DNA from: Lentilactobacillus kosonis
GTDB taxonomy: Bacteria > Bacillota > Bacilli > Lactobacillales > Lactobacillaceae
Reading direction: 5' to 3'
DNA: 64,000 nt
NCBI RefSeq assembly: GCF_003864335.1
Contig: NZ_BEXA01000001.1
Span: 248,001 to 312,000 of the forward strand
Shown: positions 23,801 to 38,125 of the stretch, in pieces
How positions within the stretch are numbered: the first letter of the stretch is position 1
Layout: every line of letters begins with the position of its first letter
Program-made: the position numbers and the translations under genes
Notes under the pieces: model-generated
What the model was told of the DNA's origin: nothing
Database searches by the model: none
The model's input: the letters and a program-made list of their open reading frames with translations, nothing else

Positions 23801-25096
23801 TTATCTACCAAAGAAATAGTATACTAACACTTCATTAACTATCGAAACTACCCACATTATTGGAACACCTAATTTTAAGAATTCCTTAGATTCAATTTTC
23901 ATATAATCCAAGCCCCAAACGTTCCATGATTGAGTAATGTCAGTTGAAACAGCTAAAATACTTGGAACATATAGTAGTGGTAATAAAAATGCATCATTGA
24001 ACAATCCAGTCCCCGAAAGCACCGCAGCCGTTGCTGCTCCAGCACCCCAAACGTGAAGAGGACCTCTAAATAATGCCAATGGTGCTAAAATTCCTAAAGC
24101 AACTGCCAAAATCAAATTATTGTGTGGCAAAATCATTTCAAACAACGGTTTAAACCGAACTGCATCCAATTGAGCCGCACCACTAAACATAATTAAGGCC
24201 ATCAAAAACATTATTAAACCTGCAATATCACTAATCGCGGTTGAAATTGTACTGTTTAGGAATTTAACAAAGTCCTTGTAGTGATTAGCCTTTCCAGTTA
24301 TCACAATTGCGATTAATGTCGCTAACGTCAAGGCAGGAATGGCATCCCACTTAAATATCATGTTCATCAAAACTGGGATAATTGGGACAATAAACGCAAT
24401 CTTAGGAACTGAACTAACTTCAGCTAAATTGCTATTCTCAGCACCGATTATTCTCAGATTTTCATCTGCTTTAGAAGGATCAATTTTTTACGATTCATAA
24501 TTAGGAAGAGCAACACTGCAATTAATTGAACGGCCATTGCTAATGCTCCAAACACTAAATACTTACCACCATAAATAGAGTGAGGAAAGAAAGCCTTAAT
24601 TTGATTATAAAGAACGACGTTCAGGTACATTGGCGCACCAATTGCTAAAGAGAATGCAGATAATGCAATTTCTCTAGGAACCCCAACGGATAACATAATT
24701 GGCAGTAAGATAACCCCAATTGCAATAACAGAACCAACGCCATATGCACTAATAAAAATAAGCGCTGTAACTAATACAACTAAAATTGCCGCCAATAGCG
24801 GACGTTTTTTACCAACTCGATTAGTTGCTAAAGAAATTGCTGGGGCAATCCCACTATCAACTAAGACGCGACCAAACCAAGAACCAAAGACAATATATAT
24901 GATTGTAGGGCCATAGTTAAGAGCTGGTTCCGCAAACACTTTTTGAATAACCTGATCAACGGGAACCATTCCAATAATTGACCATAAAATAGCCATTACG
25001 AAGAATCCAATCATCAAGTTCCCACCCTTGATGATGTAATAAATAAAAACCAATAAAGGTAACTAATAGCAGAATTGAACTAATTGTGGATAGCAT
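23801..25096 (-). CDS. GntP/CitM-like permease, two frameshifts
   Basis: This hydrophobic carrier of about 432 residues has roughly 11-12 helices (LSTISSILLLVTFIGFF; LMIGFFVMAILWSIIGMVPV; LLAAILVVLVTALIFISAYGVGSVIAIGVILLPIML; LIAIVITGKANHY). The arrangement and the SAYGVGSVIAIG and FRGPLHVWGAGAA segments resemble GntP-type gluconate or CitM-type carriers of the ion transporter superfamily. A T is missing near 25045 and an A near 24488. The ATG follows the isomerase stop codon directly. It probably imports the operon's sugar acid with protons. Confidence 0.72.
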
Positions 25097-25984: not shown

Positions 25985-26031
25985 GAAATAGCAAAACGAC
26001 CTTCTTTAAAAATCGAGAACCATTCAAAAAA

Positions 26032-26070
26032 ATAAACGGAAACCTATTGGTAGGTTTCGTTTTATTTTCT
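26032..26070 (-). terminator. Terminator-like hairpin downstream of the XRE gene
   Basis: On the minus strand, ACGAAACCTA pairs with TAGGTTTCCGT (one bulge) and is followed by a T-rich run. Confidence 0.6.
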
Positions 26071-26088
26071 CTAGTATTGCTACTAAAA

Positions 26089-26120
26089 CACAAAAACACC
26101 ATCCAAAAAACGGATAGTGC
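26089..26120 (-). terminator. Terminator of the XRE gene
   Basis: On the minus strand, CACTATCC pairs with GGATGGTG (one G-T pair), followed by TTTTTGTGTTTT. Confidence 0.65.
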
Positions 26121-26196
26121 TTTCTTCAGTATATTATCATCTCTTAAAATATTTCAATTAACATTCTCGTAATTAAGTAGATAACCACTATTGTCA

Positions 26197-26478
26197 TTAT
26201 CCAGCCAGTGGATCGCATAACCCCCAGGCATTAGTGGTCTTAGATTGATGTTTGCCAATAGCGATTTTGCTTTTTAAATCGCTATCGTCCTTAATCAAAG
26301 TATCTAAACTAAGTTCAAACAAGTTACTTATTTGGATCAGCTGATCAATATTGGGATATCCATTACTAGCTTCCCATTTACTAAGCTCTTGGGTCGAAAT
26401 ATTCAGCGTTTCGGCAAGGCGTTCTTGAGTCCATGATTTTTGATTACGATCTTCTTGCAATCTCTGACCTAATTTCAT
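26197..26478 (-). CDS. XRE family helix-turn-helix regulator
   Basis: This 93-residue protein is mainly the HTH_3 domain MKLGQRLQEDRNQKSWTQERLAETLNISTQELSKWEASNGYPNIDQLIQISNLFELSLDTLI. AAGGGGGA is well placed before the ATG at 26478, so I reject the longer upstream start. After DSDLKSKIAIGKHQSKTTNAWG the protein stops at 26197. A reading through another frame would add about 20 residues, so the C-terminus may also be affected by a base error at the GGGG run near 26215-26222. The target is unknown. Confidence 0.78.
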   Translation of the reverse strand: MKLGQRLQEDRNQKSWTQERLAETLNISTQELSKWEASNGYPNIDQLIQISNLFELSLDTLIKDDSDLKSKIAIGKHQSKTTNAWGLCDPLAG

Positions 26479-26570
26479 TATTAATCCCCCTTTATCGTTC
26501 ACAACTATCATAAAATTCGTTCCTTTATGAAGCGAATTATAAATATGAACGTTCAAGGAATGATTATGAA

Positions 26571-27170
26571 TTATCCGGCATTGTTAACTTCTGCGCGGTG
26601 ACTTCCCCATGGTAAGTACACAACTCCGGCCATCTTACTCTTAGGGACAAATCCCCAGTAACGACTATCATAAGAAATTGCGCGGTTATCTCCCATAACA
26701 AAATAGTCGCCTTTGGGAACAGTAACAATCTGTTGGTTGCGATATCTTGGCCATCGTTTAGCAATTGAATTTAAAGTAAAACCCTTATTGCTGAGATTAG
26801 TTAATGTACCTGCGTCTTGCTGATTTTTGCTAATAAATGATTGGTTAACGTATTTACCATTAATGTATAGTTTACCAGTCTTGGTGTACACTAGCTTATC
26901 CCCTGGTACCGCAATCACTCGTTTGACATAATAAGTTTTTGGCTTAGCCCCTGGTGCGACATTGTGAGCATCAAAAACCACTACTGATAATCGTTTGATT
27001 GATTTATGTTTCAACAATATTAATCGTTCTTTGTCTTGCAAATTAGGATACATTGATGAGCCATCAACCTTCGCAAACGATAAAACGTAGGTTTTTAAGA
27101 ACAATGCAATCACAACTCCAATCACAATTGGAATCACCCAGCCTAAAACTACCTTTATAATTCGTAACAC
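26571..27170 (-). CDS. lepB: Signal peptidase I
   Basis: This 199-residue membrane-anchored protease removes signal peptides from exported proteins. One N-terminal helix (VVLGWVIPIVIGVVIALFLKTYVL) is followed by the catalytic Ser39 in VDGSSMYPNL, Lys83 in YYVKRVIAVPGD, and box E GDNRAISYDSRYWGFV. An extra segment between the boxes (about 115-150) is usual for Gram-positive SipS-type enzymes. It is monocistronic by position. Secreted substrates in this window could include the metzincin and the SGNH hydrolase. Confidence 0.93.
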   Translation of the reverse strand: MLRIIKVVLGWVIPIVIGVVIALFLKTYVLSFAKVDGSSMYPNLQDKERLILLKHKSIKRLSVVVFDAHNVAPGAKPKTYYVKRVIAVPGDKLVYTKTGKLYINGKYVNQSFISKNQQDAGTLTNLSNKGFTLNSIAKRWPRYRNQQIVTVPKGDYFVMGDNRAISYDSRYWGFVPKSKMAGVVYLPWGSHRAEVNNAG

Positions 27171-27274
27171 TTACACGTCCTCCAATGTTCATCATTCAAT
27201 AATTACTATGATACATGGCTTATCCTAGTAATTCAAAATAACTTTAATCAAAGTTATCATTCGATAACCAAAAA

Positions 27275-27306
27275 TTGACCAGGATAGTAAATATATCCTG
27301 GTCAAT
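27275..27306 (-). terminator. Terminator of the TMEM175-like gene
   Basis: GACCAGGATA pairs with TATCCTGGTC; the minus strand continues with CAATTTTTGG. Confidence 0.7.
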
Positions 27307-27334
27307 TAAATCAATCCTTACCTCAATGGCCACA

Positions 27335-27928
27335 TCATGCTACTTGATCGCTATCATCAGTGGTGTAATATGCCATAAATAACAATTCAATGAGCGTGAT
27401 AATAATTCCCATCGGCGGGTAAAAATAAATCGCAATGGCAACTACTACATATATTAAATATCCCCAAATGCTGCGTAAGAAACGATAAATCGGCATCGCT
27501 GAAATACGGTTAGAAACTTCATTTTCACCCATTTCACTAGCAGTTTTAATAATACCGCTAGTTAGCCACATATAAGTAATGCTCCAAATGAAGAAAATAA
27601 TAAGATAAAAATACTCTGGAGCTCTTTCAGAAATAAATTCACCAACCCACGCTGTTGATACTGGAACTAGCGACATCGAAAACAACCATGAGTTATTAAT
27701 CCAAAAAATCCGTTTTGTAATTCTTGGGGCCAACGCAAACATGTAATGATGGTTATACCAAGCCACGGAAATGTATATAAAACTAACTGCATAAGCAAAT
27801 AAGTAAGGCCCTTCTTCCAAAATCCCCTCCCAGTTAAACGTCTCTGGGGTCTTAAACTCTAAGACCATGATTGTCAATATGATTGCTACTACCGCATCAG
27901 TAAATGCAGCTACTCTTGATTTATCCAT
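27335..27928 (-). CDS. TMEM175/DUF1211 family membrane protein, putative potassium channel
   Basis: This 197-residue protein with six helices belongs to the DUF1211/TMEM175 family, whose bacterial members form tetrameric potassium-conducting channels. The hallmark at the start of helix 1 is RVAAFTDAVVAIILTIMVLEF. The conserved SVAWYNHHYMF and the following INNSWLFSMSLVPVSTAWVGEF also fit. ATG at 27928 has GGGGGAA upstream, so I do not use the earlier start. The gene is alone. The physiological role is unknown, possibly potassium leak or membrane potential. Confidence 0.88.
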   Translation of the reverse strand: MDKSRVAAFTDAVVAIILTIMVLEFKTPETFNWEGILEEGPYLFAYAVSFIYISVAWYNHHYMFALAPRITKRIFWINNSWLFSMSLVPVSTAWVGEFISERAPEYFYLIIFFIWSITYMWLTSGIIKTASEMGENEVSNRISAMPIYRFLRSIWGYLIYVVVAIAIYFYPPMGIIITLIELLFMAYYTTDDSDQVA

Positions 27929-28074
27929 ATAAATTCCCCCAAACAATTAACTTTGATATTCACATTATACCTCTTAAATTTACAGTCTTTACTAATCAAT
28001 ATCACCAACTGAATGGGTCAACCATTAGCATTCTGTTATCAGTTTGAAAACGCTTAATCTAAAAGGGCATTTAG

Positions 28075-28103
28075 TTTACATTGTGAAATTCTCACTTTAT
28101 ACT
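28075..28103 (+). promoter_or_regulatory. Promoter of the acetoin reductase gene, with a TTGTGAA half-site
   Basis: TTTACA (28075-28080) and TATACT (28098-28103) are 17 bases apart. The spacer begins TTGTGAAATTCTCAC. It contains a perfect Rex half-site and the short inverted repeat GTGA/TCAC, so NADH-responsive control is possible but not proven. Confidence 0.7.
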
Positions 28104-28147
28104 AAAAGTGTTTTAAGGATTCAATATTAACTAAGGGGGCTAATTTA

Positions 28148-28908
28148 ATGGCAAAAGTTGCAATTGTTACCGGTGGTGGCCAAGGGATTGGTGAAGGAAT
28201 TGTTCGCCAATTAGCAAAGGATGGTTTCACTGTCGGAGTTGCTGATTTAAATGAAGATAACGCTAAGAAAGTTGCTGAAAGTGTTGGTAACGGTTCAAAA
28301 GGTTACTTCGTTGATGTCTCAAAGAAGCAAAATTTAATCGATCTCGTATCTCAAGTTACAAGTGATCTAGGTGACTTAGACGTTATGATTAATAACGCTG
28401 GAATCGCCAAAATCGGTCAAATCACTGAAACCAGCGAAGCTGATTTATCCCAAATCTTAGATGTTAATATCAAAGGTGCTTTCTTCGGAATCCAAGCTGC
28501 TGCTGACCAAATGAAGAAGCAAGGTCATGGTGGTAAGATTGTTAATGCTTGTTCAATCGCTGGTCATGAAGGCTTTGAACTACTTGGCGCCTACTCTGCC
28601 ACAAAATTTGCTGTTCGTGGATTAACCCAAGTTGCTGCCAAAGAACTTGCTAAAGACAAGATTACGGTTAACGCTTATTGTCCAGGGATCGTGTTAACTC
28701 CAATGTGGGATCAAATCGATGCCGAAATGGCCAAGATTTACGATGTTCCTGTTGGAGCTAGCCTGCAAAGAACATTGATTCAATTGCTCTAGGTCGTGGT
28801 GAAACACCTGCCGATGTAGCCAACCTAGTTTCATTTCTAGCTGATGAAAAGTCTAGCTATATTACTGGACAATCAATCATTGTTGACGGTGGTATTAGCT
28901 ACTCATAA
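28148..28908 (+). CDS. butA: Diacetyl/acetoin reductase (butanediol dehydrogenase type SDR), frameshifted
   Basis: This is a classical SDR of about 253 residues very similar to acetoin (diacetyl) reductases, which use NADH to reduce diacetyl to acetoin and acetoin to 2,3-butanediol. It shows [23 protein letters not shown], the catalytic Tyr/Lys in [13 protein letters not shown] and [17 protein letters not shown]. One A is missing near 28765; after correction it reads [46 protein letters not shown] precedes the ATG. It re-oxidises NADH during pyruvate overflow. Confidence 0.88.
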
Positions 28909-28965
28909 TTAATTTTTACAATTTAAACTTTGTGTGCTGACTAACAACATTTATATACCTCTCTT

Positions 28966-29003
28966 ATCCTCAAACCGCTGACTTAGTGGTTTGAGGATTT
29001 TTT
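28966..29003 (+). terminator. Terminator of the acetoin reductase gene
   Basis: ATCCTCAAACC pairs with GGTTTGAGGAT and is followed by TTTTTT. Confidence 0.9.
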
Positions 29004-29009
29004 AGACGC

Positions 29010-29045
29010 AAAAAACGACTAAGAAATTACGCTTAGTCGTTTTTG
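29010..29045 (-). terminator. Terminator of the fumarate reductase operon
   Basis: AAAAACGACTAAG pairs perfectly with CTTAGTCGTTTTT, five bases beyond the last gene of the minus-strand operon. Confidence 0.88.
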
Positions 29046-29049
29046 TAAA

Positions 29050-30519
29050 TTAACTTTGTGAGGCACCCGTTGAAGCATCAGGAAGCGGCGTATTCTTTTT
29101 TAATGGCTCCGAAACTGGTTGAGCTTCTTGCTTAGGAGTGGCCGTTACTTCTTTTGGTTGAACTCCTTCAGTGGCAACATTACTACCAGAATTTAATAAA
29201 GCACCAATTTCAATTCCGCCTTCGTCATCAACTGAGGTGTTAGTAGTTGCTGGTTGGGATGCAGATGATTCAGCATCCTCCGAAGCACCGGTTGAGGCAT
29301 CAGCTTTTGGTGCAGATTTTGTATCAGCATTTCCGTGTGCTGAAGCTCCGGTTGAAGCATCCAAATCTAAACCAAAGATTGGAGGAACTGGCTTTTTTCC
29401 CTCATCAGCAACTAATTTTTGCCCAGTTGTTTCAAGATAGTACTTGATGATTGGCATGATATCTAGAACCCATTCGTTAATTCCGCGATATCTGCCATTT
29501 TCATCATGCATTGCTTTGTAGTAATGCATGATATGTTTGTCTGGGCCATTACCAGGAACTGGCATCCCAACTAAGTCGGATTCTCCAGTTCTTAAAGCAT
29601 GAATTACTTGTTTAACATGCTCAACCGCCCGGGCTGGGTGAACAGATGATAGTGGATCACCAACTTGTTCAGGCCGACGTGGAGCCAACATTTTGCTAGT
29701 TGGTAAGCTCTGGTTGTAATAGATAAATTGATTATTATCATCGGCAAAGGTCAGCTCAGCTGGCATGGTTTTTAAGAAATAGTTTAATTGATCAACTGTT
29801 AGGATTCCACGGTCCAATTTTACGTAGGTACTGCCATCAACTGCATGGACCTTAGCAGCAGCCTTTTCAACCCATTCATCATCATTCATATCAACACCAT
29901 CAATTGTAGTGTTAACTTTACCGGTAGAATCAAGGTCTTCGTCCTCAACAGTCATTGGATCAGGAGCATCAAACAAATCAATCACCTTAACGTATTTTAA
30001 GAATTTATGAACTAATTTATCTAAGAAACCAATTGTTCGGGCATCTTTTAAATTACCCTCGTCATCGAATGCTTCTTTAGCATTTGACAACAAGAATTCA
30101 TCACCTGGCATTACTAATGCATCCACCCCTGGTGATTCCAAAATTTGCTTCAAGTGTAGTTGAGCTCTTGAAGAACCTTGGTTATGATACGAAGCTCCCA
30201 CAATCCAAATTGGCTTACCTTCGAATGGGTGTAAATTAAATGACATCCATTCAACTAAGTTCTTTAAAGCTGCTGGAACTGTATGGTTGTGTTCAGGAGT
30301 AGCCAAAATAATTCCTTGGGCACCTTTAAGTTTTTGATAGACCCGTTGAACCTCTTCACTATCACTAAGGTCGTGATCAGGATTAAAAACAGGTAAGTCA
30401 TCGATACTAACTAACTCAATATCTACCAAATTACTGTAATGTTTTGATATGAATTCCAATAAGTCACGGTTATATGATTGTTCACCAATTGAACCGGCAA
30501 TCGCTGCTAATTTAATCAT
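29050..30519 (-). CDS. NAD(P)H-dependent FMN reductase with PAS-like domain and three flavinylation motifs
   Basis: This 489-residue cytosolic protein has no signal peptide. Residues 1-185 are a flavodoxin-like NADPH-dependent FMN reductase (AAIAGSIGEQSYNRDLL, ILATPEHNHTVPAALKNLVEW). Residues about 230-370 resemble a PAS_10-type domain (TFADDNNQFIYYNQSL, GRYRGINEWVLDIMPIIKYYLETTGQ). The last 110 residues are low-complexity and hold DASTGAS three times, at 387-393, 407-413 and 481-487. DxxTGAS fits the Dxx[S/T]GA[S/T] consensus to which ApbE transfers FMN. It is the last gene of the operon and probably passes electrons from NAD(P)H to the fumarate reductase. I found no apbE in the window. Confidence 0.82.
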   Translation of the reverse strand: MIKLAAIAGSIGEQSYNRDLLEFISKHYSNLVDIELVSIDDLPVFNPDHDLSDSEEVQRVYQKLKGAQGIILATPEHNHTVPAALKNLVEWMSFNLHPFEGKPIWIVGASYHNQGSSRAQLHLKQILESPGVDALVMPGDEFLLSNAKEAFDDEGNLKDARTIGFLDKLVHKFLKYVKVIDLFDAPDPMTVEDEDLDSTGKVNTTIDGVDMNDDEWVEKAAAKVHAVDGSTYVKLDRGILTVDQLNYFLKTMPAELTFADDNNQFIYYNQSLPTSKMLAPRRPEQVGDPLSSVHPARAVEHVKQVIHALRTGESDLVGMPVPGNGPDKHIMHYYKAMHDENGRYRGINEWVLDIMPIIKYYLETTGQKLVADEGKKPVPPIFGLDLDASTGASAHGNADTKSAPKADASTGASEDAESSASQPATTNTSVDDEGGIEIGALLNSGSNVATEGVQPKEVTATPKQEAQPVSEPLKKNTPLPDASTGASQS

Positions 30520-30530
30520 AATTTATCCAC

Positions 30531-31157
30531 CTACTTTCCACTATCATTAGTGCCATAGTCAACGCTAATCTCATTCCGGTGTCGTAAGTCATCGGCATAA
30601 GTATGATTAAGTTTACCTTCAGCATCAATAAAGATTAGGAAATCATTGAAGATTGCATCAAGCCGTTGGCTTTGGCTTTCATCCAATAGTTTACCATCTT
30701 CATTGAATGCATTCAGTGAATGATCCAATAAGAATTCTGAACTAGGCATAATCCGGGCTTGAAGCTCTGGTGAATCCAAAAGTTGACGAAGTTGTGCCTG
30801 GGCTCTTGAAGTCCCCAGGGTTCCAAACGATGCGCCGGTAATCATCACTGGCTTATCCATTAATGGATGAATTCCATATGATAACCAAGCTAATGCACTT
30901 GAAAGAATCGCTGGAATACTATGATCCCATTCAGGAGTTGCAACAATCACGCCATCAGCTTCTTCAATTTGCTTAGCCATGTCCTTAGCTTGATCTGGAA
31001 TTTCCATATTCCGAGTCTTTTCAAAGATTGGAAGGCCTTTAACTTCCATCAACTCGATTTGGGCTTGGTCAGCATAACGATCTTTAATATATTTTAAAAG
31101 TTGACGATTTGTTGACCGGTCAGCATTAGATCCAACAATTGCAACAATTTTTTTCAT
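30531..31157 (-). CDS. NADPH-dependent FMN reductase
   Basis: This 208-residue flavodoxin-like oxidoreductase of the FMN_red family (KKIVAIVGSNADRSTNRQLLKYI; GVIVATPEWDHSIPAILSSALAWL; GTLGTSRAQAQLRQLL) is paralogous to the N-terminal domain of the next gene but has no PAS part or tail. I prefer the ATG of MKKIV because the AGAGGAA site is correctly spaced for it. Proteins like this supply electrons from NAD(P)H to partner flavoproteins, such as the fumarate or cinnamate reductases of lactobacilli. It lies 11 bases before the 489-residue gene, in the same operon. Confidence 0.87.
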   Translation of the reverse strand: MKKIVAIVGSNADRSTNRQLLKYIKDRYADQAQIELMEVKGLPIFEKTRNMEIPDQAKDMAKQIEEADGVIVATPEWDHSIPAILSSALAWLSYGIHPLMDKPVMITGASFGTLGTSRAQAQLRQLLDSPELQARIMPSSEFLLDHSLNAFNEDGKLLDESQSQRLDAIFNDFLIFIDAEGKLNHTYADDLRHRNEISVDYGTNDSGK

Positions 31158-31199
31158 TAACATTTTCCTCTTTCTAACTTGACTCGTTTAAGTAATCGA

Positions 31200-32618
31200 T
31201 TACCACATACCGATTAATTTCATCCAAAGTGAACCTACTCCAAGCCAAACTACTAAGTAGAATATTCCCATAATTGCGTTCATTGACCACCACTTGCTTT
31301 GACTAACGTATCCTGATCCAAATAGGATGGGAGCTGGTCCACTACCATAATGAGTAGTAGAAGCAAATAAGTTACCAAAGAAACCAAGCATCAATGCAGC
31401 AAGCATTGGTGGTACCCCGGCTGATAACGCAACTGCAAGTAAGGCACTATACATTGCACTAACATGCGCCGTGGCACTGGCAAATAAATAATGACTGTAG
31501 AAGTAAGCCACAATAATAACAATCAAAGCGATAATCCAGTTAACGCCTTTCATATCATCAGCAATTGTCTTACTCAACCAAGGAATAAAGCCAAGCGTAT
31601 TTAATTGGGTTGCCATCATAACTAGTACTGAGAACCAAGTTAAGGTATTCCAAGCACCAGTTTCATGAGTGACATCGCTCCATGAAAGAACACCGAGTAA
31701 TAGTAACAATGACAAGGCAATAAATGCAGTAACTGTGGCATCAACATGAATAAAACTACCCAAAACCCATAAGAGCAATGCGACAACAAACACTGCAGTC
31801 ATTGACTTTTCAGGTTTGCTCATTGGTCCCATTTCGCTCAGCTGGCTTTCAGCCCATTGACGAGCATTAGGTGTTTCCTTAATTTCAGGTGGATAAATCT
31901 TGTAGATAATAAATGGAACTAAAATCAATGAAATTATTCCTGGAACTAAGGCTGCTAAGAACCAGCCCATCCAAGTAATGTGGACACCCAATGATTTAGC
32001 TAATGATTGAGCTAATGGGTTTCCGGCCATCGCGGTCATAAACATTGCTGCAGTGATAATATCCCCCTGGAACTCAGCGTATAACAGGAAAGAACCAATT
32101 TTACGTTGCGTACCGTCCTTAGGACTTGAACCAAATGATTCCGACAATGAATTAATAATTGGGTACATAATTCCACCGGCTCTAGCGGTGTTACTTGGAG
32201 TTGCGGGAGCTAAAATCAAATCAACCCCAATAAGTGAGTAAGCTAATCCCAAAGTCTTACGACCAAACATCTTAACGAAATGAAAGGCGATTCTTCTTCC
32301 TAAACCAGTTTTAATAAATCCGCGAGAAATAAAGAATGCCATAACAATTAACCAGATGCTTGCATTACCAAATCCAGTAATGGCGGTATCAATTGGTACG
32401 ACACCTGTTAATACGGTAATTGTGAAGCCAATAATTGCTACCCCACCAATTGGGAGGGGTTGAGTGATACATCCAATAATAGTTGCAACGAAAATGGCAA
32501 ACATATGCCAACCGGCCATAGAAACACTTGCTGGCTTAATTGGTGAAGCAAACCAAATGATTAGCCCTACCAAAAGTGGTGCAATAAATTTTTTATAATC
32601 GATCTTTTCTAAGCTCAT
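31200..32618 (-). CDS. DASS (SLC13-type) dicarboxylate/anion transporter
   Basis: This 472-residue carrier of the divalent anion:sodium symporter family, CitT/YflS branch, has about 12 helices. It has the duplicated substrate/ion motif around APATPSNTARAGG and ASTTHYGSGPAP, the pattern of 2-oxoglutarate/malate or citrate/succinate exchangers. Within a fumarase-fumarate reductase operon the likely role is malate or fumarate uptake in exchange for succinate. The exact substrates are inferred from context. An AGGA-type ribosome site precedes the ATG. Confidence 0.9.
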   Translation of the reverse strand: MSLEKIDYKKFIAPLLVGLIIWFASPIKPASVSMAGWHMFAIFVATIIGCITQPLPIGGVAIIGFTITVLTGVVPIDTAITGFGNASIWLIVMAFFISRGFIKTGLGRRIAFHFVKMFGRKTLGLAYSLIGVDLILAPATPSNTARAGGIMYPIINSLSESFGSSPKDGTQRKIGSFLLYAEFQGDIITAAMFMTAMAGNPLAQSLAKSLGVHITWMGWFLAALVPGIISLILVPFIIYKIYPPEIKETPNARQWAESQLSEMGPMSKPEKSMTAVFVVALLLWVLGSFIHVDATVTAFIALSLLLLLGVLSWSDVTHETGAWNTLTWFSVLVMMATQLNTLGFIPWLSKTIADDMKGVNWIIALIVIIVAYFYSHYLFASATAHVSAMYSALLAVALSAGVPPMLAALMLGFFGNLFASTTHYGSGPAPILFGSGYVSQSKWWSMNAIMGIFYLVVWLGVGSLWMKLIGMW

Positions 32619-32646
32619 CAGCTATCCTCTTTTAAATTAATCTCTA

Positions 32647-34038
32647 TTACTTCAAGTAGTTGAATACTTGTTGCCCTGCTTGACGTCCGAAGATAACCGT
32701 CTCAGCAATTGAGTTACCACCAATTCGGTTATTACCATGTAGACCACCAACGATTTCACCACAGGCATATAAACCTGGGATGACCTGGTTATCATCAGTC
32801 AATACTTCAGTTTCTTTGTTAATACCAACACCACCCATTGTGTAATGAACCGCGGGTGCAATATGAATGGTTGAGAATGGTCCTTCTTCCATTTGACGGT
32901 CCATCCCAGTCGTCCGACCAAACTCATTATCATTTTGATCAGCAACCGCTTGGTTCCAAGTAGCAACGGTTTCAACTAATTGATCCGCATTTAAGCCAGT
33001 GGTTTCAGCAACTGCTTTGACGGTATCGGCACTCTTCACTAAGCCAATTGAATCGTAAAAATCAATGGCCTTAGCCCGGTCACGAACTTCTTGACCAAAT
33101 ACCAAGTAAGCTCCGCCTTCATTAAGGTCATCAATGGCGTTAGAAACTACCTTTCGTGTACTCAACTCATTAACAAATCGCTTACCAGCTTTGTTAACGA
33201 GAATGGCCCCTTCACCACGAACGGCCTCCCCAATTAGGTAAGTATGATCGAAATCTTGTTGAACGGTTGGATGAACTTGAATTTGATCCATATCAACCAC
33301 TTTAGCGCCAAGGGCTTCGGCCAATCGGATTCCATCCCCCGTTGCACCGTCTTGGTTAGTGGTCTTGTAACCTTTAAGGTCAGGACGATACTTAGCCAAC
33401 ATTTCTTGGTTAGCGCCAAAACCGCCGGCAGCCAATACAATTGCTTTAGTAGCAATATGTTTTGGTCCACCATTAGCCATAACTTTCATGCCAGAAATTT
33501 TGCCATCGGCATCTTTTTCTAGCTCAGTCACTTTAGTCCCCGCAAACAATGGAATGCCTAACTTTTGCACTTGCTTCAATAATTCTGTCACCAAGAAGGC
33601 CCCGATTGGAGCTAATGATGCAGGACGATGGGTTCTCATCTTGCTCATCCCCCCGGTGATAGTAATATCATCCAAATGAATATCGTGATCAGCTAGCCAA
33701 TCAATTGATAGTGCTGCGTGATCAGCAAAGTATCTTAGCAACTCGGTGTTGTTCATCTTGCCGCCACCGACATATGTTTCATCATAAAATTCTTGGAAGC
33801 TATCAACCACATGGTGTTTAAGTTGAACCAGAGTTTCAGCAGCGTTCATTCCTGAAGATGCTCGAGTAGAGTTACCACCCAACTTGTCCATCTTTTCTAA
33901 GATAATTGGGTTTAGTCCCAATTCCTTTGCTTGAATAGCAGTAGTCATTCCAGCAGCACCAGAACCAATCACTACTAAGTCGTAGTTTGCTTGTAATTCG
34001 CTAACATCGGTTAGCTTAAATCTAAATTTTTCTGCCAT
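32647..34038 (-). CDS. Soluble flavoprotein fumarate reductase (flavocytochrome c family)
   Basis: This 463-residue FAD_binding_2 enzyme reduces fumarate to succinate. The FAD site YDLVVIGSGAAGMTTAIQA is at 19-37. Active-site segments are THRP, the catalytic Arg region GEAVRGEGAILVNKAGKRFVNEL, HYTMGGVGI, and the C-terminal RIGGNSIAETVIFGRQAG. There is no signal peptide, heme domain, iron-sulfur subunit or FMN_bind domain, so it needs an external electron donor. The two FMN reductases downstream are the natural candidates. It could also act on other enoates such as urocanate or cinnamates. Confidence 0.9.
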   Translation of the reverse strand: MAEKFRFKLTDVSELQANYDLVVIGSGAAGMTTAIQAKELGLNPIILEKMDKLGGNSTRASSGMNAAETLVQLKHHVVDSFQEFYDETYVGGGKMNNTELLRYFADHAALSIDWLADHDIHLDDITITGGMSKMRTHRPASLAPIGAFLVTELLKQVQKLGIPLFAGTKVTELEKDADGKISGMKVMANGGPKHIATKAIVLAAGGFGANQEMLAKYRPDLKGYKTTNQDGATGDGIRLAEALGAKVVDMDQIQVHPTVQQDFDHTYLIGEAVRGEGAILVNKAGKRFVNELSTRKVVSNAIDDLNEGGAYLVFGQEVRDRAKAIDFYDSIGLVKSADTVKAVAETTGLNADQLVETVATWNQAVADQNDNEFGRTTGMDRQMEEGPFSTIHIAPAVHYTMGGVGINKETEVLTDDNQVIPGLYACGEIVGGLHGNNRIGGNSIAETVIFGRQAGQQVFNYLK

Positions 34039-34071
34039 TTTCGTTATCTCCTAATCGATAAACCTAAAGGA

Positions 34072-35454
34072 TTACTTGTCGTAATTGGTCATGTTGATTG
34101 GCACAACCCATTCGTCGAATTGTTCTTCAGTAAGCTTACCTGACTTCAACGCAGCTTCTTTCAACGTAGTACCATCTTTTTGAGCTTGTTGAGCAATCAC
34201 GGCACTTTCGTGGTAACCAATATGTGGTGACAATGCAGTAACTGTCATCAATGAGTTATCAACTAATTCAGCCATTCGATCAGCGTTAACCGTCATTCCA
34301 GCAATCATGCGGTCAGCAAAGCCCATTTCAGTACCAGCTAACAATTCAGCTGATTCTAAGAAAGCACTGATTAACACTGGTTTGTAAACATTCATCTCAA
34401 AGTTACCTTGGCTTGATGCAATATCAACTGTCACATCGTTACCCATTACTCGAGCAGCAGCCATCGTAATAGCTTCAGCTTGAGTCGGGTTAACCTTACC
34501 TGGCATGATTGATGAACCTGGTTCATTAGCAGGTAAGTTCAATTCACCATATCCAGCACGAGGACCACTACCCAAGAAACGAACATCGTTAGCAATCTTC
34601 ATCAAATCACTAGCCAATGTTTTGAAAGCCCCGTGAACTACGTTTAATCCTGAATGATGTGACAGACCGTAAAACTTGTTTGAATCTGAAGTGAATTCAA
34701 TGCCATAAATGGCACTCATCTTTTCAGCAATAATCTTTGAGAAGTGAGGAGCAGCATTTAGGCCGGTACCAACAGCAGTTCCACCCATCGCAAGTTCACG
34801 AAGAGTTGGTGCTAATTGATTTAAGTATTCTAAGTCATGTTCCAACGCACTCTTCCAGCCACTTACTTCTTGACCAAATGTCAATGGCACAGCGTCTTGA
34901 AGGTGGGTTCGGCCGATTTTAACAACGTCCCAGTATGCTTTTTGTTTTTTATCTAATTCATCGATTAAATGTTGAGTTGCTGATTTCAAGTTTTCAACTG
35001 CCACAGCAGCAGTAATGTTCATGGCTGTTGGGAAGATATCGTTAGAGCTTTGACCATGGTTAACATCATCGTTAGGCAAGATTTCAATATCAGGATTGAT
35101 TTTAGCAGCCATGTGAGCAACCACTTCGTTAGTGTTCATATTAGTTTGAGTTCCTGAACCAGTTTGGTAAATTACCAATGGAAAATCTTTACGAATATCT
35201 TCGTCATCAAGAGCAAGTAACTCATCGATAGCTTGAATAATTAAGTCAGCTTTTTCAGGAGCAATTGCATTTTCTTCCTTGTTAGCTTGCGCAGCAGCTT
35301 TCTTAATTTGGAGTAATGCTTTGATCATTTCAAGCGGCATCTTTGAGCCCGCTTGGAAGTTGTTCCGACTACGTTCAGTTTGAGCACCCCAAAGTGCATC
35401 AACGGGGATTTGTACGGGACCTAATGTGTCTTCTTCAGTACGATATTCTGTCAT
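34072..35454 (-). CDS. fumC: Class II fumarate hydratase
   Basis: This 460-residue iron-independent fumarase interconverts malate and fumarate. It starts MTEYRTEEDTLGPVQIP and contains DDVNHGQSSNDIFPTAM, the family signature GSSIMPGKVNPTQAE and SQGNFEMNVYKP. TAGGAGG precedes the ATG at 35454, so I reject an upstream start 22 codons earlier. It is the first gene of the operon fumC-frd-transporter-FMN reductases. Together these form a malate-to-succinate route that consumes NADH. Confidence 0.94.
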   Translation of the reverse strand: MTEYRTEEDTLGPVQIPVDALWGAQTERSRNNFQAGSKMPLEMIKALLQIKKAAAQANKEENAIAPEKADLIIQAIDELLALDDEDIRKDFPLVIYQTGSGTQTNMNTNEVVAHMAAKINPDIEILPNDDVNHGQSSNDIFPTAMNITAAVAVENLKSATQHLIDELDKKQKAYWDVVKIGRTHLQDAVPLTFGQEVSGWKSALEHDLEYLNQLAPTLRELAMGGTAVGTGLNAAPHFSKIIAEKMSAIYGIEFTSDSNKFYGLSHHSGLNVVHGAFKTLASDLMKIANDVRFLGSGPRAGYGELNLPANEPGSSIMPGKVNPTQAEAITMAAARVMGNDVTVDIASSQGNFEMNVYKPVLISAFLESAELLAGTEMGFADRMIAGMTVNADRMAELVDNSLMTVTALSPHIGYHESAVIAQQAQKDGTTLKEAALKSGKLTEEQFDEWVVPINMTNYDK

Positions 35455-35504
35455 AATGATTCCTCCTAAATTTAGGAAAATTAGTCTAGTTTTATTTACT
35501 TGCC

Positions 35505-35536
35505 AAATGATATATTTCACAAGCCGGTATAGTCAA
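35505..35536 (-). promoter_or_regulatory. fumC promoter with Rex-like site
   Basis: On the minus strand, TTGACT (complement of 35531-35536) and TATATC (complement of 35509-35514) are 16 bases apart. Overlapping the -10 box is TTGTGAAATATATCATTT (35505-35522), which has a perfect left half and a weak right half of the Rex consensus. NADH-dependent control would suit this operon, but this is inference. Confidence 0.55.
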
Positions 35537-35730
35537 ATTTATGTCATTTAATAAATTTTATTTATACCGCTTTTAATGCTTTGGCAGCAATATATTGGCA
35601 CGATTTTATTATCAAGCATCATTTATTTAAAAATATTTATGGTTAATTTTTATTCGCTTAATTGATCACGTTTTCACAGCTTTTATACATATCAAACTAA
35701 AAAGTTATTAGTTAATCGCACACGTCACCA

Positions 35731-35771
35731 CAAAAATAACTCTAAATCATTTATTGATTTAGAGTTATTAA
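35731..35771 (-). terminator. Terminator of the ClC channel gene
   Basis: A perfect 15-bp stem AATAACTCTAAATCA with TGATTTAGAGTTATT is followed on the minus strand by TTTG. Confidence 0.8.
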
Positions 35772-35788
35772 TTCATTTACATAATAGA

Positions 35789-37033
35789 TTATTTTTTCAA
35801 AACTAATTTTGAAGAATATACGGCCAAACATGCCCCTAATGCTAACGGTAGTATGGCAGAGTAATTCAAATGGCACACTTCAAAAATCATAAATGTGGCC
35901 ATTAATGGTGCTTGCTGAGAAGCAGCTAGCAATGACGCTGCCCCTAACAAACCGATTTCCCAGATTGGCACTCCAGGAGCTAAATAATTAATTAATAGTC
36001 CAAATGTCACCCCAACAACCGCTCCAATTGCGATCGATGGCGTTAGCGTTCCGCCAGATGCGCCTGCCCGTAATGATAGAACTGTCATTACGGCCTTGAT
36101 AACCGCACCAATCAACAAAACTTGGATGATAAACTTAGGATCAGTAGCTGAAAATGCGGTTTGGGCTAATGGTCGTCCGTTTCCCATGACTTCAGGGAAC
36201 GCAATGGCGACGAGTCCCGTCAGCAATCCTACTAATGGTAATTGCCACAGAATTCGATTGTCACGAGCTTGATGAGCATTAGCATATTGAAATAGCTTTC
36301 TGAATAACGCACCAAGAATTCCACAAATTGGTCCAATTACCAGTACTGCCAAGGTACTAATAAGTGAAAAGTTACTATGACCAACGCCATAGTACGGATG
36401 GAATCCTTTAATGGTCGATCCCACCAGCATGGCTTCGATTGACATCGTCAAACTCACGATAATTGCTCGCTGATCAATTCTTTTTAGTAATAACTCTAAG
36501 CTAAACATCATTCCCGTAATCGGAGCAATATACACCCCAGCAAATCCAGCCCCTGCAGCTGCCGCAATCAGCAATCGTCGGTCATCATTAGACAATTCAA
36601 TTTTACTAATTCTGCCAAATAATCTCTGCCAGATTTGCGAAACCACCGCTCCCAATTCTCTAGGGGCTAATTCACGGCCAACTGATCCACCAGTTGCCAC
36701 AAAGAAAATTTGAGTAAAGACATGCACAACCGTTGTTGCTAATGGCATCTGTTCACCATCAATTACTTTGCCGATTGAAACTGTCGGCTTCATTTTAGTT
36801 CTAATAATCCACCAGACAATCGCCGCTATAATCCCGCCAACGATTAGGGAAGTCGCTCTGGTGACTGGACCTGCCGGCCATGCAACGGGGTGCCATGTTG
36901 ATTCATGAAAGTGTAAAAACACGCCTTCAATCAATTCATAAAATAGGCCTAACAGTACTGATCCTAAACCAACTAGCCCGCCCAACACGACTGTCGAGAT
37001 TGCCAGCGCTATATTTTCCTTACTCTTAATCAT
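35789..37033 (-). CDS. ClC family chloride channel/transporter
   Basis: This 414-residue polytopic ClC protein has the anion-pathway segments ATGGSVGRELAPRELGAVVSQ (replacing the usual GREGP, with the gating Glu kept), GAGFAGVYIAPITGMMFSLELL and GASGGTLTPSIAIGAVVG. The family comprises chloride channels and Cl-/H+ antiporters, some used in acid resistance. There is no CBS domain. It is monocistronic with its own terminator and is not obviously tied to the fumarate genes. Confidence 0.9.
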   Translation of the reverse strand: MIKSKENIALAISTVVLGGLVGLGSVLLGLFYELIEGVFLHFHESTWHPVAWPAGPVTRATSLIVGGIIAAIVWWIIRTKMKPTVSIGKVIDGEQMPLATTVVHVFTQIFFVATGGSVGRELAPRELGAVVSQIWQRLFGRISKIELSNDDRRLLIAAAAGAGFAGVYIAPITGMMFSLELLLKRIDQRAIIVSLTMSIEAMLVGSTIKGFHPYYGVGHSNFSLISTLAVLVIGPICGILGALFRKLFQYANAHQARDNRILWQLPLVGLLTGLVAIAFPEVMGNGRPLAQTAFSATDPKFIIQVLLIGAVIKAVMTVLSLRAGASGGTLTPSIAIGAVVGVTFGLLINYLAPGVPIWEIGLLGAASLLAASQQAPLMATFMIFEVCHLNYSAILPLALGACLAVYSSKLVLKK

Positions 37034-37185
37034 ATTTAATATTCCTCAATATTTATTGCTCATGCTAGCCAATAATCCTTTTTATTGATTACCAACTATT
37101 TTTTAACTGACCTTCCATTTTAGTCCATTCCCATAATACATAACGATTAACTATTCCGCAATTCATGTTTAAAAGGCCAAAAGAA

Positions 37186-37216
37186 AACCCGGTTATCTTT
37201 AAGCAGATAACCGAGC
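37186..37216 (-). terminator. Terminator of aroD
   Basis: CGGTTATCT pairs with AGATAACCG over a 6-base loop; on the minus strand GGGTTTTC follows. Confidence 0.75.
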
Positions 37217-37228
37217 GATTTTTACTAA

Positions 37229-37990
37229 CTAGTCTAATCGTAAATCATTCAAAGATTTTCTTACCTCATCAATCGACATTTGTCCCGGAGCAGAAGCTTC
37301 TCCAACCGTTGTAAAACTTAAGGCTGAACCAAACAATTCACCACTAATTCTAGAAATCTTGCCCAAGTCCCCCATTGCCATCGTGACAATTGGTTGATTA
37401 AGGGCAGCCTGAGCGTGATCAGTTGCTGCAAGCAATGTCAGCACGTCGTCAACATTGGTGGGCATGACAGCGATTTTCAAAACATCTGCGCCTAGCTTTT
37501 GCATTGTGGCTAACCGAGAAATAATTTCTGCTTCGACTGGAGTTTGTTCAAAATCATGATTGCTCATCACAACAATTTTATCATGCTGATGGATTTCAGT
37601 GACTACAGCCATCACGGCTTGCGGATCATGAAACATTTCGACATCAACAGCGTCAGCGAACTTGCTCTTAGCCAATTCGAGGCAAATATCAAAATACCGT
37701 TCATCGGTGAGCGGTAACTCACCACCTTCAGTTCGCGTTCTGAAGGTCACTAATAATGCGATACCATTTAAAATGCGTACTAGCTTCTCCCCAACTGATT
37801 GCAGGCGTTTTACGTCGGTAACCTCCTTAAAGAAATCAATTCGCCACTCAACTATATCTGGATGTTTAGCCACAATGGTTTGCGATTGTTCAAGAATGTC
37901 AGTTTCTGTTTTACCCGTAATTGGCACAGCTACTTTGGGTCGTCCTTCACCTAGTGTGATGTTTTTAATTTTAATTGGGTTGGTTGTCAT
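37229..37990 (-). CDS. aroD: Type I 3-dehydroquinate dehydratase
   Basis: This 253-residue Schiff-base enzyme converts 3-dehydroquinate to 3-dehydroshikimate. It has the substrate-binding VEWRIDFF, the catalytic His in MSNHDFEQTP and the lysine in ADVLKIAVMP, plus the C-terminal SFTTVGEASAPGQM. I use the ATG of MTTNPIKIK because GGAG is ideally spaced, 4 codons after another ATG. No other shikimate gene is adjacent, so it may serve quinate or shikimate use instead of aromatic biosynthesis. Confidence 0.92.
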   Translation of the reverse strand: MTTNPIKIKNITLGEGRPKVAVPITGKTETDILEQSQTIVAKHPDIVEWRIDFFKEVTDVKRLQSVGEKLVRILNGIALLVTFRTRTEGGELPLTDERYFDICLELAKSKFADAVDVEMFHDPQAVMAVVTEIHQHDKIVVMSNHDFEQTPVEAEIISRLATMQKLGADVLKIAVMPTNVDDVLTLLAATDHAQAALNQPIVTMAMGDLGKISRISGELFGSALSFTTVGEASAPGQMSIDEVRKSLNDLRLD

Positions 37991-38125
37991 GTTAGGCTCC
38001 ATTCAAGGTTTTAAGTTTTTTATCTTAAAGATTTCAACACTAATATTACCATGCTAATAAATATAAAATTAGAGTTAATTAAAAACTACACTTATTGTAT
38101 TATAAGTGTACGCCATTAGTGAACT

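Follow-up and report, generated by a model that had tools for sequence, protein, structure and literature searches.

The window analyzed in this study, a stretch of 64,000 nucleotides from Lentilactobacillus kosonis, encodes a 489-residue protein in which an FMN reductase (FMN_red) domain and a PAS_10 domain are followed by a tail with three copies of the sequence DASTGAS, a motif of the type recognized by the flavin-attaching enzyme ApbE. In the interpretation that we put forward, and to which we give about even chances on the basis of the sequence data, this protein would be part of a cytosolic, NADH-oxidizing FMN_red heterodimer whose tail serines are flavinylated by a cytosolic ApbE enzyme, and the flavins tethered in this manner would reduce the FrdA protein encoded in the same operon. 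The motifs themselves, their conservation, the predicted disorder of the tail, the gene order and the co-occurrence are direct observations; each step of the mechanism that follows upon motif recognition is one that we infer.

The gene for the 489-residue protein belongs to a block on the minus strand (positions 35520-29050) that comprises, in this order, fumC, frdA, a DASS transporter gene, the gene for a 210-residue FMN_red protein and that for the FMN_red-PAS_10 protein, neighboring genes being 11 to 36 bases apart. The two FMN_red genes adjoin each other with 11 bases in between, the arrangement that characterizes a FRedA/B-type pair. As judged by consensus matches, there are no terminator-like sites in the gaps from fumC to the FMN_red-PAS gene, and the stem-loops that were found score on both strands at 35735-35769 and on the plus strand only at 28966-28998. 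No RNA families were detected at the gathering threshold within positions 26000-38000. The block contains the following features:

34072..35520, minus strand: class II fumarase FumC (Pfam Lyase_1 and FumaraseC_C)
32647..34038, minus strand: FrdA-like FAD_binding_2 protein without FMN_bind, CXXCH or strict motif (Pfam, pattern scan)
31200..32618, minus strand: DASS-family transporter, proposed dicarboxylate carrier (Pfam Na_sulph_symp, NCBIfam TIGR00785)
30531..31163, minus strand: 210-residue FMN_red protein without motif, proposed heterodimer partner (Pfam)
29050..30519, minus strand: 489-residue protein with FMN_red, PAS_10 and disordered tail (ORF, Pfam, AlphaFold2)
30076..30513, minus strand: FMN_red domain, residues 3-148 (Pfam E 2.1e-34; closest solved folds 1rtt, 3svl, 3u7r)
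29458..29787, minus strand: PAS_10 domain, residues 245-354 (Pfam E 3.4e-27; closest solved fold 2qkp, the SMU_1151c C-terminal domain)
29341..29361, minus strand: motif 1, DASTGAS, residues 387-393 (pattern scan)
29281..29301, minus strand: motif 2, DASTGAS, residues 407-413 (pattern scan)
29146..29217, minus strand: tail segment GIEIGALLNSGSNVATEGVQPKEV, residues 435-458, putative motif for docking to FrdA (present in 4 of the 397 genomes of the family)
29059..29079, minus strand: motif 3, DASTGAS, residues 481-487 (pattern scan)

The preliminary description of this DNA had read the 489-residue protein as an FMN reductase joined to a PAS-like domain and a low-complexity tail with three DASTGAS copies. 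Pfam and the motif scan reproduce this composition exactly, and the position given for the motifs, 29059-29361, is precisely the span from the last to the first of them. In the AlphaFold2 model, the FMN_red and PAS parts are well modelled, the former resembling 1rtt, YieF/ChrR and FerB and the latter SMU_1151c and 2qkp; the pTM of 0.48 leaves the arrangement of the domains uncertain. Residues 386-489 have pLDDT values <50, and the tail is thus predicted to be disordered. All three motif copies thus occupy an accessible position, as would be expected for an ApbE substrate. Pfam detects no FMN_bind domain in the protein, which in this respect differs from those multi-flavinylated proteins that have two or more FMN_bind domains.

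When the strict form of the motif, D..[ST]GA[ST], was searched for in all reading-frame stretches of at least 60 amino acids in the window (28,841 residues), it matched solely at residues 387, 407 and 481 of the 489-residue protein. Different codons are used in the three copies, and they are therefore not the product of a fresh DNA duplication. From the loci of relatives, we compiled 83 distinct FMN_red-PAS frames, seven of which had tails of fewer than 25 residues (through a frameshift or the edge of a locus) and were left out; in counts over loci, a gene may be represented by several overlapping copies (e.g., L087/L123 and L090/L120). The resulting 76 tails contain 172 strict motifs, compared with a mean of 0.41 and a maximum of 3 in 500 shuffles. 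At least one strict motif is present in 66 of the 76 tails, with the number per tail ranging from 0 to 6; in one protein (L069), strict motifs occur solely between the domains, and nine proteins have none. Both the shuffles and the unlike codons of the three copies rule out an origin of the motifs by chance or low complexity. Of the 180 strict motifs of the FMN_red-PAS family, 178 have Ser as acceptor; hence, Ser, initially regarded as the less usual acceptor, is the rule in this family. Stand-alone FMN_red proteins (195-245 residues), in contrast, carry the motif in none of 86 cases.

Judged from pairwise alignments, the motif residues are fixed while the remaining tail drifts. All 15 key motif residues of the window tail are identical in both G018 and G001, two related genomes in which 42 of 72 and 34 of 75 of the other aligned tail residues, respectively, are the same; L005, with no more than two strict motifs in its tail, shares 8 of the 9 key residues that align and 20 of the 73 remaining ones. 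At the level of the genome, a DNA pattern for the motif yields 8 raw matches versus 6 for the reversed control pattern, a count that is not striking by itself. What deserves attention is that four of the eight are exact DASTGAS sequences, all of which reside in two proteins: the 489-residue FMN_red-PAS protein and a 203-residue PAS_10 protein, which are the sole carriers of exact DASTGAS in the genome according to the DNA pattern. The latter protein is encoded directly after apbE, outside the window (L001 2060-2671; contig about 314010-314621), and ends in DASTGAS. The remaining matches are DSSSGAS in a 93-residue frame, DDDSGAS in a 344-residue protein of seemingly secreted type (by eye), and two further sites (L136, L137) without a motif in any frame of at least 40 amino acids.

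The genome contains one match to ApbE, at contig positions 313089-313912, 1.1 kb past the end of the window. About ten residues precede the ApbE domain, leaving no room for a signal peptide. The lack of any apbE homologue, which according to the preliminary description would have refuted its proposal, is therefore not what the genome shows, with the reservation that the gene is frameshifted in this assembly (it is intact in G018). In the window genome, apbE falls into two overlapping frames that separate at a stretch of six T, and there is no ATG, GTG or TTG in frame ahead of the domain. Two further genes, the MFS gene before apbE and the SDR gene at 28148-28792, whose C-terminal part continues in another frame, are frameshifted as well. 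In G018, whose FMN_red-PAS protein is 88% identical to that of the window, the apbE, SDR and MFS genes each form a single frame. Since all three genes are intact there, the split of apbE is probably, though not certainly, an indel error of the assembly. As a separate observation, two adjacent membrane-protein frames at 23801-25053 of the window resemble the halves of a single gene disrupted by a frameshift; by eye, the second of these frames corresponds to the beginning of a longer one from G018 (L139 12966-14000). Pairs of apbE and PAS genes like that of the window genome were also seen in L138, L143 and L124.

Across the 397 genomes of the family, FMN_red-PAS proteins were found in 103 (threshold E<=1e-90) and ApbE proteins in 226 (threshold E<=1e-15). 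ApbE is present in 102 of the 103 genomes with an FMN_red-PAS protein versus 124 of the 294 without one, with genomes counted irrespective of their relatedness; the single FMN_red-PAS genome without an ApbE match, G296, is 76% complete. The FMN_red-PAS threshold misses some family members, such as a 383-residue protein of G026 (L148) that stands outside the 103. Within the loci, 47 of the 83 FMN_red-PAS frames are preceded by an apbE gene on the same strand at a distance of less than 1 kb. A lipobox is found in 18 of the 93 distinct ApbE sequences in these loci and is lacking in 60 (fragments included), while the N-terminus is out of view in 15; none of the 18 lipobox-type sequences (L100-L117) has an FMN_red-PAS gene beside it within its own, short locus.

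The nine tails devoid of a strict motif (L145, L016, L042, L045, L049, L050, L080, L081, L086) contain 28 copies of the relaxed form D-x-x-[A/S/T]-[S/G]-A-[S/T], compared with 0.40 in shuffles, and apbE adjoins six of the nine corresponding FMN_red-PAS genes. It is possible, judging by these sequences, that the drifted tails are served by ApbE enzymes with a changed target specificity, and such motifs could lead to ApbE enzymes that use different tags. Other architectures are present as well. Aerococcaceae forms of 882-901 residues (L056, L057, L069) have three PAS_10 domains (Pfam-shown for L056), their strict motifs being placed behind FMN_red and in the stretches that separate the PAS domains, and a 261-residue FMN_red protein without PAS (L157 6258-7040; G012) has three strict motifs in its tail and is encoded beside apbE. 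Single-chain fusions of FMN_red and FAD_binding_2 in relatives contain exactly one motif in 10 of 10 cases, and both of the two such fusions that were scanned contain FMN_bind; these FMN_red / FMN_bind / FAD_binding_2 fusions are presumably relatives of HcrB. Because such fusions occur, the succession of NADH, FMN_red, covalent FMN site and FAD_binding_2 exists elsewhere within one polypeptide. Reversed fusions, with FAD_binding_2 ahead of FMN_red, one DAVSGAT motif and an adjoining apbE gene, were observed in L144, L146 and L153 (FMN_bind shown for L144). An NADH:cinnamate reductase (Crd) of Vibrio has an FMN_red partner and one covalent FMN.

The FrdA protein of the window matches FAD_binding_2-type families only. 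Neither the heme motif CXXCH, nor FMN_bind (Pfam), nor the strict motif is found in it; lacking any of these as a built-in electron-input module, it needs a separate electron donor. The earlier statement that the fumarate reductase has no FMN_bind domain is hence confirmed for the protein of the same operon, and no FMN_bind match was obtained anywhere in the genome, which is estimated to be 83% complete. The tail segment at residues 435-458 provides a possible connection between the two proteins. Four tails carry its consensus GIEI[GS]xLLNSGxNxATEG[VI]QP, and a search with this consensus finds it in 4 of the 397 family genomes. These are exactly the four genomes with fumC-frdA ahead of the FMN_red pair: the window genome, G018, G001 and, as L005 (which coincides with G144 by its coordinates), Paucilactobacillus oligofermentans. 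All four share the gene order fumC-frdA-(DASS)-FMN_red-FMN_red-PAS. In G018, the DASS gene is not situated between frdA and the FMN_red pair, and in P. oligofermentans a LysR-like frame (by eye) lies in between and apbE follows directly after FMN_red-PAS. A second FMN_red-PAS copy of G001 has neither the segment nor frdA.

Sixty other loci extend 3052 bases or more upstream; in none of them does a frdA gene occur on the same strand over a distance of 3.1 kb, and 15 contain a divergent FrdA of the Companilactobacillus type near the FMN_red pair, which has its own motif in 14 of the 15 (FMN_bind shown for L021). In a tree of 34 selected sequences, L005 groups with P. nenjiangensis (L006), which has neither the segment nor frdA, and segment plus frdA need two changes on this tree: two gains, or one gain plus two losses. 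There is consequently modest evidence, from four genomes of which three belong to one genus, that the segment may be a docking motif for FrdA, and for the many relatives that have no frdA, the pattern in these four genomes gives no hint of the acceptor. The link to FrdA made in the preliminary description thus gains support from the gene order in four genomes and a tail segment found solely there; the 60 other loci, and the published NADH oxidation with H2O2 formation by the unfused L. johnsonii relatives, speak against its generality.

Taken as a scheme, the two FMN_red proteins encoded side by side (210 and 489 residues) would, by analogy to the published FRedA/B proteins, form a heterodimer that oxidizes NADH via bound FMN. 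Given the motif, the genome content and the published FMN_red substrates, ApbE would place FMN on the last Ser of DASTGAS, with one to three flavins per chain. These tethered flavins could function as swinging arms that carry electrons from the FMN_red site to a separate acceptor, a picture that fits the modelled disorder of the tail better than the fixed wire proposed initially. In this lineage, the acceptor would be the FrdA protein of the same operon, with the segment GIEIGxLLNSGxNxATEGxQP helping in docking, and together with FumC and the transporter, the conversion of malate via fumarate to succinate could provide a sink for NADH.

Parts of this scheme have precedents. Flavinylated C-terminal extensions of FMN_red proteins (PMC11334425) and FMN_red-PAS fusions (PMC4500961) are already known. 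Two Lactococcus FMN_red proteins have been shown to be flavinylated; they possess one to two motifs, for which Ser or Thr is required, and share with the window protein the FMN_red domain, the location of the motif on an unstructured C-terminal extension and a cognate apbE gene (PMC11334425). By their description in the available parts of that report, which mention no PAS domain, they differ from the protein studied here in its PAS_10 domain, its three motifs, its FMN_red partner gene and frdA in the operon; the 261-residue FMN_red protein of L157, compared by description, looks like this simpler class. The FRedA/FRedB heterodimer of L. johnsonii, which is unfused, oxidizes NADH with formation of H2O2, and FMN_red-PAS fusions in other lactobacilli were noted in the same report in 2015 (PMC4500961). 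As in our case, two FMN_red proteins are encoded together and a PAS_10 protein, LjPAS, acts on them; unlike in the window protein, PAS is separate, the product is H2O2 and flavinylation is not considered in the available part of that work (PMC4500961). HcrA/HcrB of L. plantarum similarly combine an FMN_red-type partner with a flavoprotein reductase that is NADH-dependent and has a C=C bond as its target, with the catalytic reductase fused to the NADH domain, whereas FrdA is a separate protein here (PMC10295242). In Klebsiella pneumoniae, a signal-less ApbE also occurs and cytosolic flavinylation serves a soluble fumarate reductase; there, the fumarate reductase itself is flavinylated (PMC12052999), while in our scheme the modification would affect the donor, at as many as three sites. 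According to the same source, the seven-residue motif is a sufficient tag and Thr is preferred over Ser (PMC12052999). Extracytosolic ApbE substrates have been surveyed, with a two-site DUF3570 protein shown (PMC8238504), and a further report concerns, as far as its accessible part goes, an unrelated reductase (PMC13101492). Among the matches listed in the open-licence PMC literature, there was no report that describes an FMN_red-PAS protein as ApbE substrate, its tail with several motifs or a connection to FrdA.

The main rival explanation, a serious contender that nevertheless stays short of an even chance in our assessment, is that of flavin retention. The tethered FMNs would sit in the FMN_red pocket, and perhaps the PAS pocket, of their own protein and thereby secure a weakly bound cofactor; the enzyme would then work as NADH oxidase or as flavin reductase under regulation by PAS, and the neighborhood of frdA would reflect shared regulation only. 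Such a role has been proposed for the Lactococcus substrates, which have the motif on a C-terminal extension close to where the flavin binds (PMC11334425), and it would suit FRedA/B, which binds FMN only at about 2 µM and makes H2O2, with LjPAS slowing complex formation (PMC4500961); the absence of frdA beside most relatives points the same way. However, tails with up to six motifs offer more flavins than there are pockets available, the spacing of the motifs varies, and a tail segment that tracks frdA has no place in this explanation.

Keeping the shuttle function of a flavinylated tail, one could also envision a different acceptor (oxygen, a quinone or another reductase) and regard the frdA operon as a later association. 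We hold this to be rather improbable: the conservation of the frdA gene order in four genomes along with the tail segment argues against it, even though FMN_red-PAS proteins occur in 103 of 397 family genomes and the segment in just 4, and the divergent Companilactobacillus-type FrdA near the FMN_red pair has its own motif in 14 of 15 cases. Very improbable, in our view, is an absence of flavinylation altogether, in which case the strain's apbE would be a real pseudogene and the DASTGAS motifs mere leftovers. The two frames at the six-T run and the lack of an in-frame ATG, GTG or TTG before the domain would be in keeping with this notion, but the G018 apbE frame is likewise without an obvious ATG start, the motif residues are unchanged relative to G018 and G001, and the frameshifts in the SDR (28148-28792) and MFS genes, with all three genes intact in G018, are suggestive of assembly indel errors.

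Returning to the flavinylated donor of FrdA, our sequence comparisons permit, at less than even confidence, the tentative generalization to a class of soluble donors in which one to six FMNs are attached to the disordered tail of an NADH:FMN_red dimer, which passes electrons to a separate reductase without an electron-input domain of its own, recruited by a short linear motif of the tail, with drifted tags in some lineages. Should these drifted tags prove true, they would point to ApbE enzymes with changed target specificity. An FMN_red-PAS protein made in a host without cytosolic ApbE would be predicted to fall short of part of its cofactor. If the proposed mechanism is true, it would explain how a FrdA protein without heme or FMN_bind is supplied with electrons and would assign a testable role to the FMN_red-PAS proteins, which have been known since 2015 but have had no clear function. 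ApbE-mediated flavinylation, mostly studied outside the cytosol, would then be central to cytosolic NADH disposal in lactobacilli.
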